Shown here: positions 30,223-39,323 of the stretch, in pieces
How positions within the stretch are numbered: position 1 is the stretch's first letter
How the letters are laid out: each line of letters begins with the position of its first letter
Source of the DNA: Halieaceae bacterium
GTDB taxonomy: Bacteria; Pseudomonadota; Gammaproteobacteria; Pseudomonadales; Halieaceae
Length of the DNA stretch: 50,815 bases
Assembly: GCA_002683335.1 (NCBI GenBank)
Contig: NYTE01000049.1
Span: 13,561-64,375, forward strand
Direction of reading: 5' to 3'
Made by a program: the position numbers and the translations under genes
The notes under the pieces: generated by a model
The model's input: only the letters and a program-made list of their open reading frames with translations
Told to the model about the DNA's origin: nothing
Databases searched by the model: none

Positions 30223-31752
30223 TCATGATGCTGCTCGATACGCGTCTTGTAAATGCCGTTTATAAAGTTTGCCATTGTCCATTCGAGGCAATTGTTCCAG
30301 AAAATCGATTTTTCTCGGCACTTTCACGCCCGATAGCCGCTCCCGCATCCACTGAGTCAACTCCTCAGCGGTTTCCCCTGTTGCCTCGCTCCACTCCATA
30401 GGTTGCACCACCGCAACCACCTCTTCCCCGAACTCCGGGTGGGGCACACCGAAAACTGCCACGTCGGCAACCTTGTCATGCGTAATTAACAGGCCTTCTA
30501 TTTCTGCCGGATAAACATTGACGCCACCCGATATGATGGTGAAGTTTTTTCGGTCGGTTAGGTACAAAAAGCCCTCTTCATCGAGGTAGCCTACATCGCC
30601 CATGGTACTCCAGCCCTGCTCATTAAAGGCTTCGCGCGTCTTCTCGGGTTCGTCAAAATACTCAAATGGCCGGCTATTTGCGAAATAAACATCACCAATC
30701 TCACCGGTGGCCAAAACCTCACCATTCTCACCAAGAATTCGCGGTTCACCGATGATGGCCTGCCCCACGGATCCCTTATGAGTCAGCCAGTTTGCCGAAT
30801 CGATAATGGTGAAACCATTACCCTCACTACCAGAGTAATACTCGACGATCACAGGGCCCCACCAATCAATCATGGCCTCTTTGACATCGATTGGACAGGG
30901 CGCTGCCGCGTGAATTGCGCACTTCATGGAGCTGAGATCATATTGATGGCGGTCCATTTCGGGGAGCTTCAGCATGCGAACAAACATAATGGGCACCCAC
31001 TGGCTATGCGTCGCTTTGTATCGATCGATCAGCGCCAGGGACTGCGCAGGATCAAATTGCTCCATGATGACGGAGGTTCCTCCTAGGCCCAGTAGCATCA
31101 AGTTATAGTGCAGAGGCGCCGCGTGATAGAGCGGCGCGGGAGACAGATAAATCGTGTCTAACCCAAACCCAAAAAACGCACCAACACTTCCAGACATCGG
31201 ATGATCCACATGAATACTCTCGGCATGCGGCTTCCAATACACACCCTTCGGCTTACCCGTTGTACCTGATGAATAGAGCATGGGGGTGCCGAGGCATTCA
31301 TCTGCGATCGGGGTGTCAGGCAGCCCCTCAATATGCTGCTCAAGGGACTCAAAACCGGCAATCTCTCCACCCACCGACAGACAGATACCAAGCCCCTCAG
31401 AAGCAACTGCCGCCTCGATAGCCACTGAAGCCAAACTCGCCGACGCAATGAACAGCTTTGCCTTGCAGTTGGTAAGGATATAGGCCGTCTCATCCTGCTT
31501 GAGATGCGTGCTGATGGGCGTAAAGATGACCCCCGCTCGGATCGCTGCCTGGGCAACCTGTAAAAACTCAGCGCAATTTTTCATCATCATTGCAATATGG
31601 TCGCCGCGATGAATGCCTGAATTCCGCAAAAGATGTGCTATCTGATTTGAACGCTGATCGAGCACGCGATACGTCACCGTCTCACCAGAATTAGCCATAA
31701 TGTAGGCAGGCCGATCCGGGGTCTCACTTGCGTAGGAGGAAAAATGCGGCAT
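30223..31752 (-). CDS. Acyl-CoA synthetase (class I adenylate-forming)
   Basis: LYSSGTTGKPKGVYWKPH, GDVGYLDEEGFLYLTDRKNFTIISGGVNVYPAEIE. Confidence 0.92.
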   Translation of the reverse strand: MPHFSSYASETPDRPAYIMANSGETVTYRVLDQRSNQIAHLLRNSGIHRGDHIAMMMKNCAEFLQVAQAAIRAGVIFTPISTHLKQDETAYILTNCKAKLFIASASLASVAIEAAVASEGLGICLSVGGEIAGFESLEQHIEGLPDTPIADECLGTPMLYSSGTTGKPKGVYWKPHAESIHVDHPMSGSVGAFFGFGLDTIYLSPAPLYHAAPLHYNLMLLGLGGTSVIMEQFDPAQSLALIDRYKATHSQWVPIMFVRMLKLPEMDRHQYDLSSMKCAIHAAAPCPIDVKEAMIDWWGPVIVEYYSGSEGNGFTIIDSANWLTHKGSVGQAIIGEPRILGENGEVLATGEIGDVYFANSRPFEYFDEPEKTREAFNEQGWSTMGDVGYLDEEGFLYLTDRKNFTIISGGVNVYPAEIEGLLITHDKVADVAVFGVPHPEFGEEVVAVVQPMEWSEATGETAEELTQWMRERLSGVKVPRKIDFLEQLPRMDNGKLYKRHLQDAYRAAS

Positions 31753-31807
31753 GACAGGCCTCTTTTAATATTATGATACGCAATCACTATACATTTTCGA
31801 GAATGAG

Positions 31808-32605
31808 ATGGTAGCGGTTGAGCTTGCTGAAACGGGGCGAAGTGTCAGGGCACAATGCCGAGACGGTAGTTTCAGCTCCCAAACATCGGGGCTGGCCCCC
31901 GGATATGTGCAAGCCAATATCGTAATACTCCCCTCGGAGGGGGCCTCCGATTTTCAGACTTTCTGCCAACGTAACCCCCGCCCCTGTCCGCTATTGGCCA
32001 TGAGCCCATCGCCCGGCGACCCAACGTTGCCTGAGGTGGGCAACGATATCGACATTCGTATCGATCTGCCAAAATACCGGGTGTGGCGAGATGGCGTTTT
32101 GGCAGAGCAAATTACCGATATCCATCAACTCTGGCAGTCCGATTGGACCGCTTTTGCATTGGGTTGCTCCTTTTCTTTTGAGGAAGCGTTGATGGACGCG
32201 GGTGTGGAGATACGTAATATTACTGAAGGGGTTAACGTCCCGATGTACGTAACCAACATACCGTGTGCGAGCTCAGGGCCTTTCTCTGGAAAGATGGTCG
32301 TAAGTATGCGGCCGATGTCCGCCTCTAATGCCATCCGAGCCATTCAGATTTGCTCTCGCTTCCCGTCGGTGCACGGCGCGCCCATCCACCTGGGCGATCC
32401 CGCACAAATTGGTATAGCCGACCTAAACAAGCCAGACTTTGGAGCGGCAGTTTATGTGGCACCTTCGGAAATACCACTATTTTGGGCTTGTGGCGTTACC
32501 CCACAAGTCGCCCTGCAGGGGGCAAAACTCCCACTTGCGGTGACACACGAACCCGGGCACATGCTCGTAACTGATTTAAAGAATACTGAGTTGGCGATTT
32601 TTTGA
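31808..32605 (+). CDS. DUF1445 putative hydro-lyase / D-glutamate cyclase N-domain homolog
   Basis: [90 protein letters not shown]. Confidence 0.93.
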
Positions 32606-33345
32606 TGACACGACAACTAACCCTCAACTGCGATATGGGAGAAAGCTACGGCGCTTGGACTATCGGCAATGATGCGGCAATCATGCCGCTGATTGATGCC
32701 GCTAATATCGCCTGCGGCGGACATGCCGGTGACCCGGGGACTATGCGGCACTGTGTAACACTCGCCCGCCGCCACGAGACAGAGATAGGGGCCCATGTGT
32801 CCTACCCGGACCTTCAGGGCTTTGGCCGAAGAGCGATGGACATTCGAGGCCCGGAGTTAATTGATTTGATTCATTACCAAATCGGTGCCTTAGACGGAAT
32901 AGCTAGAACCCATGGGACTCGAGTGAGCTTCGTAAAGCCTCATGGTGCTCTTTATCATGCGATGCTGTCAGACTCCTTGGTTCTCAATGACGTGATGAGG
33001 GCAGTCTCAGGCTGGCACGCTGACTTATCACTCGTGATGCTGGCCACTCCCCGTGATAGAAAAACAGTTGAATTAGCAGTCCAACACGGATTGACACTGC
33101 AGTATGAGGCCTTTGCCGATCGCGGCTATACAAGCCGCGGCCTACTCATTCCCCGCGACAAGCCGGGTGCTTTGCTGACACTGGAAGAGGCAACCGAGCA
33201 GTCCCTGTCTATTGCTCAGAATAATCTTCGCACACCTAAGGGGAAGCGTATTCCTGTCACCGCCGACACGCTTTGCGTTCATGGCGATACACCTGGCGCC
33301 GTCAAGATGATCAGAGCCATTCGTAGCGCATTGGACAAAAAGTGA
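32602..33345 (+). CDS. pxpA: 5-oxoprolinase subunit A (LamB/YcsF)
   Basis: [51 protein letters not shown]. Confidence 0.94.
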
Positions 33346-34047
33346 ATGAAATTTGACGTGGGCCCCGCGGGAGACGTGGGATTGCGCCTTGTGTTTTCGC
33401 AATCACCGAAGCCGTCGCTCACCTATAGCTTACTGGCGCTGCAAAGCGCCGCCAGACGGCAATTCTCGGACGCTCTGATGGATAGTATCGTGAGTTACAC
33501 CACATTGACCTTGTTCTTCCATCCGCTGACTGTTGACCGAGAACGCGCGCAGCGCTGGCTAGAGGACCAGGCTCGGGCCGCATGCGATTCACCAGACAGC
33601 CCGGACACTGAGCGAAATACGGTTACGCTCCCGGTGTTGTATCACCCCAGCGTTGCTCAGGATCTTGAGTGGCTCGCTGAAAACCAAAATATGAGTATCG
33701 ACGATATTATCGAGCTGCACAGCGGGAAGGATTACTTCGCTTACGCAACGGGCTTTGCGCCAGGATTCTGCTATCTCGGCACGGTAGATGAGCGCCTGGC
33801 AACACCCCGCTTGGCAACACCCAGAGCAAACGTTCCGCCGGGCTCTGTGGCCATAGCCGACCAGCAGACAGCGGTCTATCCATGCTCATCACCCGGAGGT
33901 TGGCGGGTCATTGGTACTTGTCCGACGCGACTATTTGACTTGAATTCAGACCCAGCTGCGTTGCTCTGCGTCGGCGACACCGTCAAGTTTGAGCCGATTT
34001 CAATGGCTGAATTCCGAGCGGCACAAGACACCCCGGCCAAACAATGA
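33346..34047 (+). CDS. pxpB: 5-oxoprolinase subunit B (KipI-like)
   Basis: GFAPGFCYLGTVDERLATPRLATPRANVPPGSVAIADQQTAVYPCSSPGGWRVIG. Confidence 0.94.
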   Translation: MKFDVGPAGDVGLRLVFSQSPKPSLTYSLLALQSAARRQFSDALMDSIVSYTTLTLFFHPLTVDRERAQRWLEDQARAACDSPDSPDTERNTVTLPVLYHPSVAQDLEWLAENQNMSIDDIIELHSGKDYFAYATGFAPGFCYLGTVDERLATPRLATPRANVPPGSVAIADQQTAVYPCSSPGGWRVIGTCPTRLFDLNSDPAALLCVGDTVKFEPISMAEFRAAQDTPAKQ

Positions 34048-34970
34048 GAACGCTCGCCCTCATTCGTTCTGGCATCGCCACTACCATTCAGGACACAGGT
34101 CGATCGGGGCATCAGCAGATCGGCATCCCACCGAGTGGCGCCATGGACAAATTTGCCATGCTGATGGGACAGCGTCACCTTGGGCATCGCAATAATGAAG
34201 CAGCATTGGAGTTTGCCTATGGAGATTTGGCTTTTAAAACATCGCATCCTTGTCACTTTGTTGTGACCGGTGCGCCCGCAATCATTACGATTGGCGACGC
34301 AGCACATCACAGCGGCTCGTTGGAGCACACTGAAGCAAACCAAATGGTCAACATCCATACTAGCGGACACGGCGTCTATAACTACCTCCACGTTGCTGGG
34401 GGAATTGCCATATCAACCTGTTTGGGGAGCCGGAGTACTTCTCCCCGAGAGCGCATTGGGGGCCTCGAAGGCAGATACCTGCGTGACGGAGACATCCTGC
34501 CTTTGGGGCCAGAGAGCAAAGATTACGAGGCATTAGATTCAATAATGCCAAGCACCCGTCATCGCGACACACTGTGTCTCAGGTTTATCCCCGGATTCCA
34601 ATTTGATCAGTTCTCTGAGACAACGCAACAGAACCTGATTTCGCAGGTTTTCTCTGTCACCCCCCGAGCAAACCGAATGGGTATCGCGCTGAGTGGTGAT
34701 CCTGTCAACACGGGCATACAGGCGTTACTCTCTGAAGCCACCTGTTACGGTGCCATACAAATACCGCCAGATGGCGACCCAATTGTCTTACTCAATGATC
34801 GTCAAACGGTCGGCGGCTACCCCAAAGCAGGGGCCGTTATCAGCGGTGACTGCCATCGCCTGGTCCAATCTCGACCGGGCCAACGTGTGCGATTTGTCGC
34901 CATTACGCCCCAAGAGGCGGATCGAGTTGCTTGGCTCGAGCATCACTACCTCGAGACCAAATTATCGTGA
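34044..34970 (+). CDS. pxpC: 5-oxoprolinase subunit C (KipA-like)
   Basis: GIATTIQDTGRSGHQQIGIPPSGAMDKFA, NRMGIALSG, QTVGGYPKAGAVISGD. Confidence 0.94.
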   Translation: MRTLALIRSGIATTIQDTGRSGHQQIGIPPSGAMDKFAMLMGQRHLGHRNNEAALEFAYGDLAFKTSHPCHFVVTGAPAIITIGDAAHHSGSLEHTEANQMVNIHTSGHGVYNYLHVAGGIAISTCLGSRSTSPRERIGGLEGRYLRDGDILPLGPESKDYEALDSIMPSTRHRDTLCLRFIPGFQFDQFSETTQQNLISQVFSVTPRANRMGIALSGDPVNTGIQALLSEATCYGAIQIPPDGDPIVLLNDRQTVGGYPKAGAVISGDCHRLVQSRPGQRVRFVAITPQEADRVAWLEHHYLETKLS

Positions 34971-35821
34971 CGCATCATATAGCCAAGGAAACCATTGAAG
35001 CCGTTGAAATGCTGCTCATACAAAATGATCACAGAGGCATGAGCCGCATCCGGCAGGCACTAAATCCAGGCTATCTTGGAAGGGCCGCGGAGCTGCTGAG
35101 AACGAAACGGGGGACAGCCTATATCGTGACTGGATTTCCGGTGGCTGGCTCGTTTGAAACGGATGGACCCGCGGGCGCAATGGCGCTGTACCGGCTTTGT
35201 GAGCGAAACCATCTGAGACCCACTATCTTATCGGATCCTGCTGTTACCCACTGTCTCAGTCCGACGTACCGCACCATGGAGTTGGCCACAGGCACAACAG
35301 AACACATCCGCCAGTCTGTTCAGGATCTTTACCAAAGCACACCTCCTGCTTTGTTAATCAGCATTGAAAGACCGGGCGCCGCTATGGATGGAAAGTATTA
35401 CAACATGTCCGGTACTGATATTACCCCTGAGTGCACGCCCGCTGAGCCCTACTTTGAGCTTGCAGCTTGCCCGACCATCGCGATTGGTGATGGTGGCAAT
35501 GAACTCGGTATGGGTAAAGCCGCAGAGGCGCTGAGCGCTCTGGACATTCATCCCGCCATGAGCATCTGCGACGAATTGTTAGTGGCTGATGTTTCTAATT
35601 GGGCGGCCTATGCAATTTGCGCACTGGCTTACGCTCAAAGCGGGGCCATTCCCGACTTGGGCGCCGATATTCGTAATGACCTCGCTTTTTTGGTGGAGTC
35701 TGGCGCAGTGGATGGCGTTACCGGTAAGCCTACCGCTACTGAAGATGGGTTTGCTGAGGGCGCTGGTAACGTACTCATCGACCACATCATCACTTTGCTT
35801 TATCGAGAGTGCACACTATGA
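34967..35821 (+). CDS. DUF4392 protein (D-glutamate cyclase C-domain homolog)
   Basis: AYIVTGFPVAGSFETDGPAGAMALYRL, SIERPGAAMDGKYYNMSGTDI, IAIGDGGNELGMGKA. In-frame GTG at 34967 overlaps the pxpC stop (GTGA); ORF extends to 34931. Confidence 0.88.
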   Translation: MTHHIAKETIEAVEMLLIQNDHRGMSRIRQALNPGYLGRAAELLRTKRGTAYIVTGFPVAGSFETDGPAGAMALYRLCERNHLRPTILSDPAVTHCLSPTYRTMELATGTTEHIRQSVQDLYQSTPPALLISIERPGAAMDGKYYNMSGTDITPECTPAEPYFELAACPTIAIGDGGNELGMGKAAEALSALDIHPAMSICDELLVADVSNWAAYAICALAYAQSGAIPDLGADIRNDLAFLVESGAVDGVTGKPTATEDGFAEGAGNVLIDHIITLLYRECTL

Positions 35822-36678
35822 CCATGGCATATCTGAACGGCGAGTTTTTACCGCTTCATGAGGCAAAAATATCGCCTATGGATCGGGGGTTCCTCTTTGG
35901 GGACGGCGTTTATGAGGTAATACCCTGTTACGTCGGGAAAACAGTGGCACTGCAGTACCACATGGATCGCCTCAGGCACTCACTTCACGAAATCCAACTC
36001 GCCATCGCGCCATCAGATTCAGATCTGGAAGCTATCCTAAAGGAACTGATCATTCGAAATGGTAACGGCAATGTAGGCATCTATCTGCAGATCACTCGTG
36101 GCGTGGTCGAGAAGCGGCAACACGCCTTCCCCGAGCGTGCTTCGCCAACGGTGTTTGCTTACACCTTTCCTATCGACCCTCCATCAAATGGCGCAGCAGA
36201 TAATGCGACCTGTTTTACCACGGTAACCCGCGCGGACACGAGATGGGCCCGATGTCATATCAAGTCCACCGCCCTGCTGGGCAACGTGCTTCACATGATG
36301 GAGGCGGTAAACGAAGGAGCAGAGGAAGTTTTATTGTTTAATGAGCAAGGCTTACTCACCGAGGCTGCGGCATGCAATGTTTTTATCGTAAAAGACGACC
36401 AAGTCCTCACCCCCGAGCTGGATCATCAAAAGCTACCCGGCGTGACCCGCCGCCTCTGTCTCGAACTACTCGAAAAATATACAGATTGGCAGGTGCGGGT
36501 GGGACCCGTCAGTCGCGAAGCAGTCATGTCCGCTGAGGAGGTCTGGTTGAGCTCATCGACCAAAGAGCTGGCACCCGTAATCGCCATCGATGGTAAACCA
36601 GTGGCAGATGGCAGACCCGGGAGCTATTGGTCTGCGGCACAGCGGCTTTTTCACCTTCATCGATTCGACATAAAATGA
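35818..36678 (+). CDS. D-amino-acid aminotransferase (class IV PLP)
   Basis: SPMDRGFLFGDGVYEVIPCY, QITRGVVEKRQHAFPE (RxH motif of D-amino-acid transaminases), DTRWARCHIKSTALLGNVL. ATG 35818 overlaps the upstream stop. Confidence 0.88.
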   Translation: MTMAYLNGEFLPLHEAKISPMDRGFLFGDGVYEVIPCYVGKTVALQYHMDRLRHSLHEIQLAIAPSDSDLEAILKELIIRNGNGNVGIYLQITRGVVEKRQHAFPERASPTVFAYTFPIDPPSNGAADNATCFTTVTRADTRWARCHIKSTALLGNVLHMMEAVNEGAEEVLLFNEQGLLTEAAACNVFIVKDDQVLTPELDHQKLPGVTRRLCLELLEKYTDWQVRVGPVSREAVMSAEEVWLSSSTKELAPVIAIDGKPVADGRPGSYWSAAQRLFHLHRFDIK

Positions 36679-37745
36679 TGACCAGATCCACCTCTGTTTT
36701 CATTGATCTCGCGGCCATTGGCGATAACATCTCCGCGCTTAAGCGCTCTCTCGAGGGGCGCCGCTTTATGGCAGTCGTCAAGGCAGATGCATACGGGCAC
36801 GGCGCAGTCGCTGTCGCTCGACATATTGAGCAAATGGTAGACGCTTACGCCGTCGCAATCACCGAAGAAGCTGTTGAGCTGCGCACCGCGGGCATCAGCA
36901 AACCGATCCTAATACTGGAGGGACCTCACTCGGAAAATGACGTAGCAATTGCTGCAAAACAGGACTTGTGGCCCGCCGTACACGATCTCCGCCAAATTGA
37001 ATGGTGCAGAGCTCATCAGCGTCCGCTTCCCCACATTTGGATCAAAATCGATACTGGAATGCATCGTCTTGGGTTCGCCCCTGAGCAACTTCACAGCGTG
37101 AAGCAGTCGTTAGAAGGGGCGGGCTGTCGTCGTTTAACCTTGATGTCGCATTTGGCATCCGCCGAGTTCCCTGACAGCGCAATCACCACACAACAACTCA
37201 ATCTGTGGCGACAAATCGTCTCTGATTGGCCAGGCGACGTAAGCCTATTTAACTCGGCAGCGAGCCGTCTGGAACTTGCCACCAAAAACGACTGGGCAAG
37301 AGTCGGTTATGCAATGTATGGCGGTCTGGTAAAAGATTTATCCAGCAACTCAGAACTCAAGCCGGCCATGCGTTTTGAAACTGCGGTATTGGCGCTCCGG
37401 CGCATAGCTGCTGGCGAGGCTGTCGGGTACGGCGGTCATTGGATCGCTCGGCGAGACAGCCTGATCGCCACCCTGCCTGTGGGCTACGGAGACGGCTATC
37501 CCTGGGCCGCACAGAACGGCACGCCGATAGAAATTAACGGCTCCCTCGCCCCTCTTGTCGGGCGCGTATCGATGGACATGTTGACCGTTGACGCAACAGA
37601 CTGTGACGACGTGGAAATCGGGACACGGGCAATCCTGTGGGGACACAACCCAGGGGTAGACGAGGTGGCAGCAGCCAGTGGCACCATTGGCTACGAACTG
37701 ATGACGCGTATGACGGGAAGAGCTACACGGTGCTACGAAGAATGA
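36675..37745 (+). CDS. alr: Alanine racemase
   Basis: MAVVKADAYGHGAVAVA (PLP-Lys), KIDTGMHRLGF, PVGYGDGYPWAAQNG, GRVSMDMLTVD; ATG 36675 overlaps the upstream stop (ATGA). Confidence 0.95.
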   Translation: MMTRSTSVFIDLAAIGDNISALKRSLEGRRFMAVVKADAYGHGAVAVARHIEQMVDAYAVAITEEAVELRTAGISKPILILEGPHSENDVAIAAKQDLWPAVHDLRQIEWCRAHQRPLPHIWIKIDTGMHRLGFAPEQLHSVKQSLEGAGCRRLTLMSHLASAEFPDSAITTQQLNLWRQIVSDWPGDVSLFNSAASRLELATKNDWARVGYAMYGGLVKDLSSNSELKPAMRFETAVLALRRIAAGEAVGYGGHWIARRDSLIATLPVGYGDGYPWAAQNGTPIEINGSLAPLVGRVSMDMLTVDATDCDDVEIGTRAILWGHNPGVDEVAAASGTIGYELMTRMTGRATRCYEE

Positions 37746-37814
37746 GCTCCCACTTGCAGGACCACATTTCAACGCACGATGCCCTCACCTCTGAAAACTT
37801 CGCAACCCACAGTA

Positions 37815-39323
37815 ATGACTGATAACGACCAAAAAACAGACGAGACCTTAGCGGCGATTGATCTGGGGAGTAACTCATTTCATCTGATGATCGCCAAGTC
37901 CCAATTTGGCGAGCTGAGACCCGTTCACGCTCTGGCGGAGAAAGTTCAACTAGGCGAAACCGATGACGCGGGCATGCTCACTCCCTCTGCAATTACCCGA
38001 GGTCTGACTTGTCTCGAACGTTTTAAGCAACTCATAGACAGCACTTCGCCGGAGAAAATACGTATTGTGGGCACCAACGCACTACGGCGCGCAAAAAATC
38101 GACAAGCTTTTATAGATCCGGCCGAGCAAATAATGGACGCATCTATTGACGTTATTTATGGACGCGAGGAGGCCCGGCTGATTTATTTGGGGGTGGCACA
38201 CACCCTCTCCGATGACGCAAACGTCAGATTGGTCCTGGATATTGGCGGAGGCAGTACAGAATTTATTTTAGGTGAGCGCTTTGAGCCAAAACGACTCGAG
38301 AGCCTTCAGATGGGATGCGTATCCTATGGCCGACGATATTTGCCAGATGGCTTTATTCATCGTGAGGGTTTTGAGGCAGCCTACCAAAGGACACGCATTG
38401 AGGTGTCGCATATTCGACGCGGCTACCACAGCAAAGAGTGGCAAGAGGCTGTCGGATCCTCTGGCACGCTTCGCGCCATAGAGACACTGATATCAACGGC
38501 TGGTTGGCGAGATAGCGGGATCGATCGGGATTCCCTAGAAAAGCTGAAGCGGGTACTGCTTGCTTTCAAACATGTTGAAGAGATCAGTCTCGACGGCCTC
38601 AACCATACGCGAAAAGGCGTTGTAACCGCAGGATTGGCCATCACGCTTGGCATCTTCGATGGCTTACAAATCGAGGAGATGCGCACCTCGCCGGGTGCAC
38701 TTCGAGAGGGCGTCATTTACGATCTGATCGGCCGATTCGGTCATGAAGACGTGCGCACTCGTACCGTCTCAGCTATGCAACAACGCTACAAAGTTGATCA
38801 ACATATTGCTGATCTGGTCTGCCGCCGCGTGGAGACATTAGCCTCGGCGACCGTATCGGAGTGGGGTCTTTTGGGTAGCGAGGTGGATCTTTTGATATGG
38901 GCAGCAGCCATGCATGAAGTCGGCGCTGCCGTGTCCCAGAAAAACTACTCGCAGCACTCGGCCTATCTTGTCCTCAACAGCGATTTACCGGGATTCGCTC
39001 AACAGGACCAAGAGGTCATGGCCGCGCTCATCTCTGGACTCAGGGGAAAGGTTCGCTCGGAGATTCTGGACGCTATTCCCAGTCGGAAAAGAGTTAATGT
39101 GGTGCGGATGATGATCTTGCTGAGACTGGCAGTCACCCTGAAGCACGTTGAGGAAATGGAAGACATTCCTGACCTCTCCGTATGCGCGAACGGTGAAACG
39201 CTTACCCTGACCTATCCCCAGGATTGGGGCGAGGCCCACCCACTGACGATTTGGGAAATACAGCAGAGTAAACCGTCTTTTGAGAAACTAGGCATCACAG
39301 TCTCCCTAAGCGCCCTCACCTAG
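37815..39323 (+). CDS. ppx: Exopolyphosphatase / Ppx-GppA family
   Basis: AAIDLGSNSFHLMIA, VLDIGGGSTEFILG, HEVGAAVSQKNYSQHSAYLV; the start may be 37779. Confidence 0.92.
   Translation: MTDNDQKTDETLAAIDLGSNSFHLMIAKSQFGELRPVHALAEKVQLGETDDAGMLTPSAITRGLTCLERFKQLIDSTSPEKIRIVGTNALRRAKNRQAFIDPAEQIMDASIDVIYGREEARLIYLGVAHTLSDDANVRLVLDIGGGSTEFILGERFEPKRLESLQMGCVSYGRRYLPDGFIHREGFEAAYQRTRIEVSHIRRGYHSKEWQEAVGSSGTLRAIETLISTAGWRDSGIDRDSLEKLKRVLLAFKHVEEISLDGLNHTRKGVVTAGLAITLGIFDGLQIEEMRTSPGALREGVIYDLIGRFGHEDVRTRTVSAMQQRYKVDQHIADLVCRRVETLASATVSEWGLLGSEVDLLIWAAAMHEVGAAVSQKNYSQHSAYLVLNSDLPGFAQQDQEVMAALISGLRGKVRSEILDAIPSRKRVNVVRMMILLRLAVTLKHVEEMEDIPDLSVCANGETLTLTYPQDWGEAHPLTIWEIQQSKPSFEKLGITVSLSALT

Follow-up and report, generated by a model that had tools for sequence, protein, structure and literature searches.

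A seven-gene operon of a Halieaceae bacterium with a predicted role in the supply of D-glutamate and its return through 5-oxoproline

The seven genes and their products

We have analysed a window of 50,815 nucleotides from a Halieaceae bacterium. Positions 31808-37745 of its + strand hold seven open reading frames, whose ends overlap or abut in the ORF map, in the order DUF1445, pxpA, pxpB, pxpC, DUF4392, dat and alr. All of them match their Pfam families (PF07286, PF03746, PF02682, PF02626, PF14336, PF01063, and PF01168 with PF00842, respectively) far above the cut-off. The ORF map and the Pfam and NCBIfam identities thus bear out the original prediction of seven + strand genes without gaps, and the identities given to the genes are upheld by these matches, the Dat motifs and the DUF4392 metal ligands. 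The junctions within the operon are short start/stop overlaps; the probable start codons of DUF4392 (GTG 34967) and alr (ATG 36675) overlap the stops of pxpC and dat, respectively.

On one flank lies a divergent acyl-CoA synthetase gene (30223-31752, - strand), separated from the operon by a divergent intergenic region of 55 nt (31753..31807). This region is the presumed operon promoter, and no consensus sigma-70 site was found on its + strand. On the other flank, a Ppx/GppA gene (37779-39323, + strand) begins 33 nt past alr. Terminator-like sites on the + strand of the operon are not above chance, the single weak match lying within dat.

The DUF1445 gene (31808..32605, + strand; PF07286, 'D-Glu_cyclase', Pfam 5.9e-64; NF003969 395.7 bits, cut-off 324) encodes a homologue of the solved 3DB9 and 2PIF, which are also the structural matches of its AlphaFold model (pLDDT 90.3). 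The protein corresponds to the N-terminal domain in mammalian D-glutamate cyclase, and its candidate roles are cyclase partner or 5-oxoproline racemase. B. subtilis, a control in the PF07286 scan, also encodes a DUF1445 protein. At another locus (L200:5778-9506), DUF1445 has no pxpABC nearby and adjoins a TRAP-type transporter (label by eye), a context in which it may have other partners.

The three following + strand genes encode 5-oxoprolinase subunits A (LamB/YcsF; 32602..33345, Pfam 4.2e-86), B (33346..34047, Pfam 5.1e-61) and C (34044..34970, Pfam 5.8e-74). These adjacent genes each exceed a curated cut-off, namely NF003816 for pxpA (307 bits, cut-off 213), TIGR00370 for pxpB (151.2 bits, cut-off 145.55) and TIGR00724 for pxpC (238.8 bits, cut-off 230.2), and pxpC falls below the PxpC equivalog model NF045499 (222.2 vs 500 bits). 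The solved relatives of pxpA are 2XU2, 1V6T and 1XW8, and the nearest one of pxpC is 5DUD YbgK. Two other loci (L078 and L173) have pxpA beside DUF4392 and dat, with no recognisable pxpB or pxpC nearby.

The DUF4392 gene (34931..35821, + strand; PF14336, GLUCM-like_C, Pfam 2.8e-56) encodes a homologue of TON_0340. Its AlphaFold model has a pLDDT of 94.9, and the top Foldseek matches are all TON_0340. The metal ligands E76, D78, E146, D187, E191 and D272 are invariant in 103/103 DUF4392 sequences and equal all six acidic ligands of TON_0340 (E59, D61, E115, D157, E161, D246). Elsewhere, a 3573-aa ORF with two PF14336 domains is accompanied by an adjacently encoded DUF1445 (L211:3680-14401), a 1412-aa protein ends in a PF14336 domain and matches no Pfam family over the remainder (L212:5077-9315), and one genome (G059) has a second, divergent DUF4392 of 27% identity outside any such operon (L054:9493-10239).

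The dat gene (35809..36678, + strand, Pfam 3.8e-51) encodes a canonical D-amino-acid transaminase of fold type IV, with the annotated D-amino acid aminotransferases 4PBC, 4M0J and 1DAA as best solved matches. The canonical motif of this enzyme comprises F26, Y31, [VA]33, [KRPT]35, xYxQ and RxH (PMC10003956). In the window protein the corresponding residues are F30, Y35, V37, P39, Y92, Q94, R103 and H105, and the motif positions F26, Y31, V33, Y88, R98 and H100 are kept in at least 79 of 81 operon Dats, where the position of Q94 is Q or H in the others. On the other hand, Dat is below the cut-off of the NCBIfam equivalog TIGR01121 (216.9 vs 277.45 bits), which counts against a role of the operon in D-glutamate supply and return. 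A second Dat paralogue, 42% identical, is encoded elsewhere in the window's own genome (G000:C50:3882-4733, L071). The last gene, alr (36627..37745, + strand), encodes an alanine racemase (TIGR00492 310.5 bits, cut-off 168) whose catalytic Lys and Tyr are conserved (42/42).

Conservation of the gene order and two separable modules

We have searched 99 related genomes, 58 of the window's genus (three of them single-contig: G006, G031, G054) and 41 outside it. PF14336 is present in 43 of them, and when the loci were annotated with the window proteins, all seven genes were found in the same order and strand at 35/36 of the relatives' loci with enough flank. In addition, a scan of named gammaproteobacterial genomes, including Halioglobus, Seongchinamella, Kineobactrum, Amphritea, Neptunomonas, Marinobacterium, Porticoccus, HTCC2207, Rheinheimera and Thalassotalea, has given 80 loci, 62 of which have enough flank. 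The first six genes are all present in 47 of these 62, all seven in 25, and the five genes without dat in 9. The co-occurrence to which the original prediction looked is therefore observed in both sets. As background, PF14336 occurs in 11/398 genomes of the phylum and PF07286 in 4/232 of the class. Since both DUF families are rare and yet the seven genes are ordered in 35/36 loci, the grouping is more than chance; a chance adjacency of the seven genes is ruled out by the conserved order.

The neighbours fadD, patatin and ppx are common to the window locus and Halieaceae, which suggests an origin of the window in this family. In many Oceanospirillaceae loci dat is separated from DUF4392 by a LysR-type regulator, and rodA/PBP2 is a neighbour at some loci (labels by eye in both cases). 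DUF1445 and DUF4392 also occur as a bare pair (L209 and L210).

In fourteen species of the same genus the arrangement is fadD-[dat-alr]-ppx, with DUF1445-pxpABC-DUF4392 missing as a block (L055-L068; L056 starts at dat). These species form one group in the Dat tree (support 100/99). Given this grouping and the presence of the whole operon in members of the family outside the genus, a single loss is the simplest account. This pattern indicates that DUF1445, pxpABC and DUF4392 constitute one module and dat-alr another. All 11 of the block-less species that we examined have a stand-alone, divergent pxpABC elsewhere, with no DUF1445 or DUF4392 nearby; the operon and stand-alone PxpABC show 23-42% identity and belong to distinct lineages.

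Supply of D-glutamate and its return through 5-oxoproline

MurI above the TIGR00067 cut-off was found in none of the 58 genus genomes, including the three single-contig ones, and the one clear Alr per genome in this genus is the operon Alr. Among the 41 order genomes outside the genus, a Dat homologue of at least 150 bits is present in 14/14 MurI-less vs 4/27 MurI-containing genomes (Fisher p 8.7e-8, with kinship ignored). MurL was not found in the 1.24 Mb sampled (~45%) of one closed 2.74-Mb genus genome (G006), and murD was likewise not found there. Three observations, namely the lack of a MurI above the cut-off in the genus, the operon Alr as its sole clear alanine racemase and the survival of dat-alr after loss of the other five genes, make it most likely, judging from gene content, that dat-alr supply D-Glu and D-Ala for peptidoglycan in the window's genus. 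Alr would convert L-Ala to D-Ala, Dat would move the amino group of D-Ala to 2-oxoglutarate to give D-Glu, and in a genus lacking MurI this product would be the probable source of peptidoglycan D-Glu.

The original prediction saw here a module for D-amino-acid salvage or disposal. In its pure form, Dat would channel D-amino acids of environmental or peptidoglycan origin, D-Ala among them, into D-Glu, which would go on to glutamate by way of 5-oxoproline, and Alr would feed in D-Ala. This reading agrees with the MurI-containing Rheinheimera, Thalassotalea and Pseudoalteromonas, where dat lies beside the five-gene module with no alr nearby and the operon may be catabolic. For the MurI-less genus it fits poorly, since the sole clear Alr and the missing MurI imply an essential biosynthetic job for Alr and Dat, probably as the supply arm, and since dat-alr outlives the catabolic genes. 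Salvage or disposal as the only function is thus unlikely. Among 50 named genomes with the operon, MurI is above the cut-off in 14, so Dat is not always the sole D-Glu source; a Dat homologue is present in each of the 50, but in five of them (Thiothrix, Cocleimonas and Leucothrix MAGs) it is only a 34-37% match.

For the other module, we predict that DUF4392 is likely a metal-dependent D-glutamate cyclase. Two genomes of the same phylum have DUF4392 overlapping or close to MurL, in one case as its immediate neighbour (L205:8580-10944) and in the other grouped with a MurD-family ligase and MurL (L206:8754-13711). This neighbourhood supports D-Glu as its substrate, and the two contexts link DUF4392 to a second MurI-independent D-Glu route. 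On the other hand, the closest solved DUF4392 protein, TON_0340 of Thermococcus onnurineus, is reported as a Mn-dependent phosphatase (PMC5132392), which counts against the cyclase reading. With DUF4392 as a small-molecule phosphatase, PxpABC could simply repair damage by clearing the 5-oxo-L-proline that forms spontaneously from L-Glu or L-Gln, and the co-expression of dat and alr would be incidental. Such 5-oxo-L-proline does arise in all cells and is cleared by PxpABC (PMC13274462), and the Dat-only members of the clade have retained their stand-alone pxpABC. This account, which we regard as distinctly improbable, leaves unexplained why DUF1445 and DUF4392 travel with pxpABC and dat across many families, and why DUF4392 is found beside MurL.

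Returning to D-glutamate supply and return, surplus or recycled D-Glu would be cyclised to 5-oxoproline by DUF4392, probably together with DUF1445 as the split counterpart of DGLUCY; 5-oxoproline would be epimerised, with DUF1445 as the candidate; and PxpABC would open the ring with ATP to give glutamate. We infer all of these reactions, as well as the direction of flux and the epimerisation step. The link between D-Glu and 5-oxoprolinase that had been claimed is well supported by the synteny and the DGLUCY domain pair. The claimed run from D-Ala through D-Glu and 5-oxoproline to Glu, however, does not close stereochemically, as it lacks an epimerisation step. From general chemistry, ring opening by PxpABC retains the configuration of the alpha-carbon, so opening 5-oxo-D-proline regenerates D-Glu, and epimerisation is needed to reach L-Glu; a closure from D-Glu through 5-oxoproline to L-Glu without a racemase is ruled out on these grounds. 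The same retention would suit a cycle guarding the D-Glu pool, in which the operon PxpABC lineage, distinct as it is from the stand-alone one, opens 5-oxo-D-proline back to D-Glu with no net D-to-L conversion. We consider this cycle very improbable, because, with a dedicated D-Glu cyclase encoded alongside, it would be futile and burn ATP.

To our knowledge, no enzyme is known for the epimerisation of 5-oxoproline, and no description of a 5-oxoproline racemase was found in the literature searched. As a hypothesis only, drawn from sequence comparison, DUF1445 would be the most likely candidate. Its Cys60, Cys120 and Cys228 are invariant among 100 aligned sequences and recall the paired cysteines that are a feature of MurI, proline racemase and DapF. 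A known racemase fold was also sought for DUF1445, and Foldseek has given its own family only, plus a weak match (TM 0.41) to the nitrogen-repressor-like protein MJ0159 (3NEK), so that the racemase role finds no backing in the fold. We offer, quite tentatively and with more doubt than conviction, a further idea: DUF1445 might be an undescribed cofactor-independent 5-oxoproline racemase, which with the DUF4392 cyclase and PxpABC would form a complete, energetically driven inversion of D-Glu to L-Glu in place of MurI, which is reversible; the DUF1445 part of human DGLUCY would then share this origin. Overall, we lean by a little towards the operon being a combined system of D-glutamate supply and return.

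Significance and relation to known systems

In the open-access papers searched, we have found no description of a bacterial D-glutamate cyclase operon, nor, as had been supposed, of an operon with the full set of genes; a preprint counted six adjacent split GLUCM homologues in gut bacteria (PMC11580864). The route was previously known only in pieces, and the operon is widespread in marine Gammaproteobacteria. It ties together bacterial counterparts of the DGLUCY domains, the 5-oxoprolinase PxpABC and a cell-wall D-Glu supply that lacks MurI, and it gives DUF1445 and DUF4392, families of unsettled function, a testable pathway. If the model holds, dat should be essential in these bacteria, and a 5-oxoproline racemase would be the piece still missing. 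Direct testing is possible in cultured carriers, among them Halioglobus, Amphritea and Marinobacterium; the genome of Halioglobus pacificus has shown no MurI above the cut-off.

The Gram-positive Bacillus and Listeria also make D-Glu from D-Ala by Dat; here, the host is a Gram-negative genus without MurI above the cut-off, and dat shares its operon with alr and a predicted D-Glu-removing module. The MurD2-MurL route of Xanthomonas is likewise a MurI-independent source of peptidoglycan D-Glu, in which MurL epimerises a bound L-Glu residue and no free D-Glu occurs (PMC8788868), and DUF4392 adjoins MurL in two genomes. TON_0340 shares family, fold and the six acidic ligands with the window DUF4392 but was studied alone, as a phosphatase, and D-Glu cyclase activity is not known to be among the results reported for it (PMC5132392). 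As in the pxp loci of B. subtilis and C. glutamicum, pxpA, pxpB and pxpC are adjacent and ATP-dependent ring opening is expected, whereas in C. glutamicum the operon also includes a 5-oxoproline transporter (PxpT) and a regulator, and the window operon adds DUF4392, dat and alr (PMC13274462). Finally, DGLUCY (9030617O03Rik), with its DUF1445 and DUF4392 domains, converts D-Glu to 5-oxo-D-proline (PMC5339696). Both domains are present in the window operon; DGLUCY, however, is a single mitochondrial polypeptide without operon partners, while the window has two genes flanking pxpABC, together with dat and alr.
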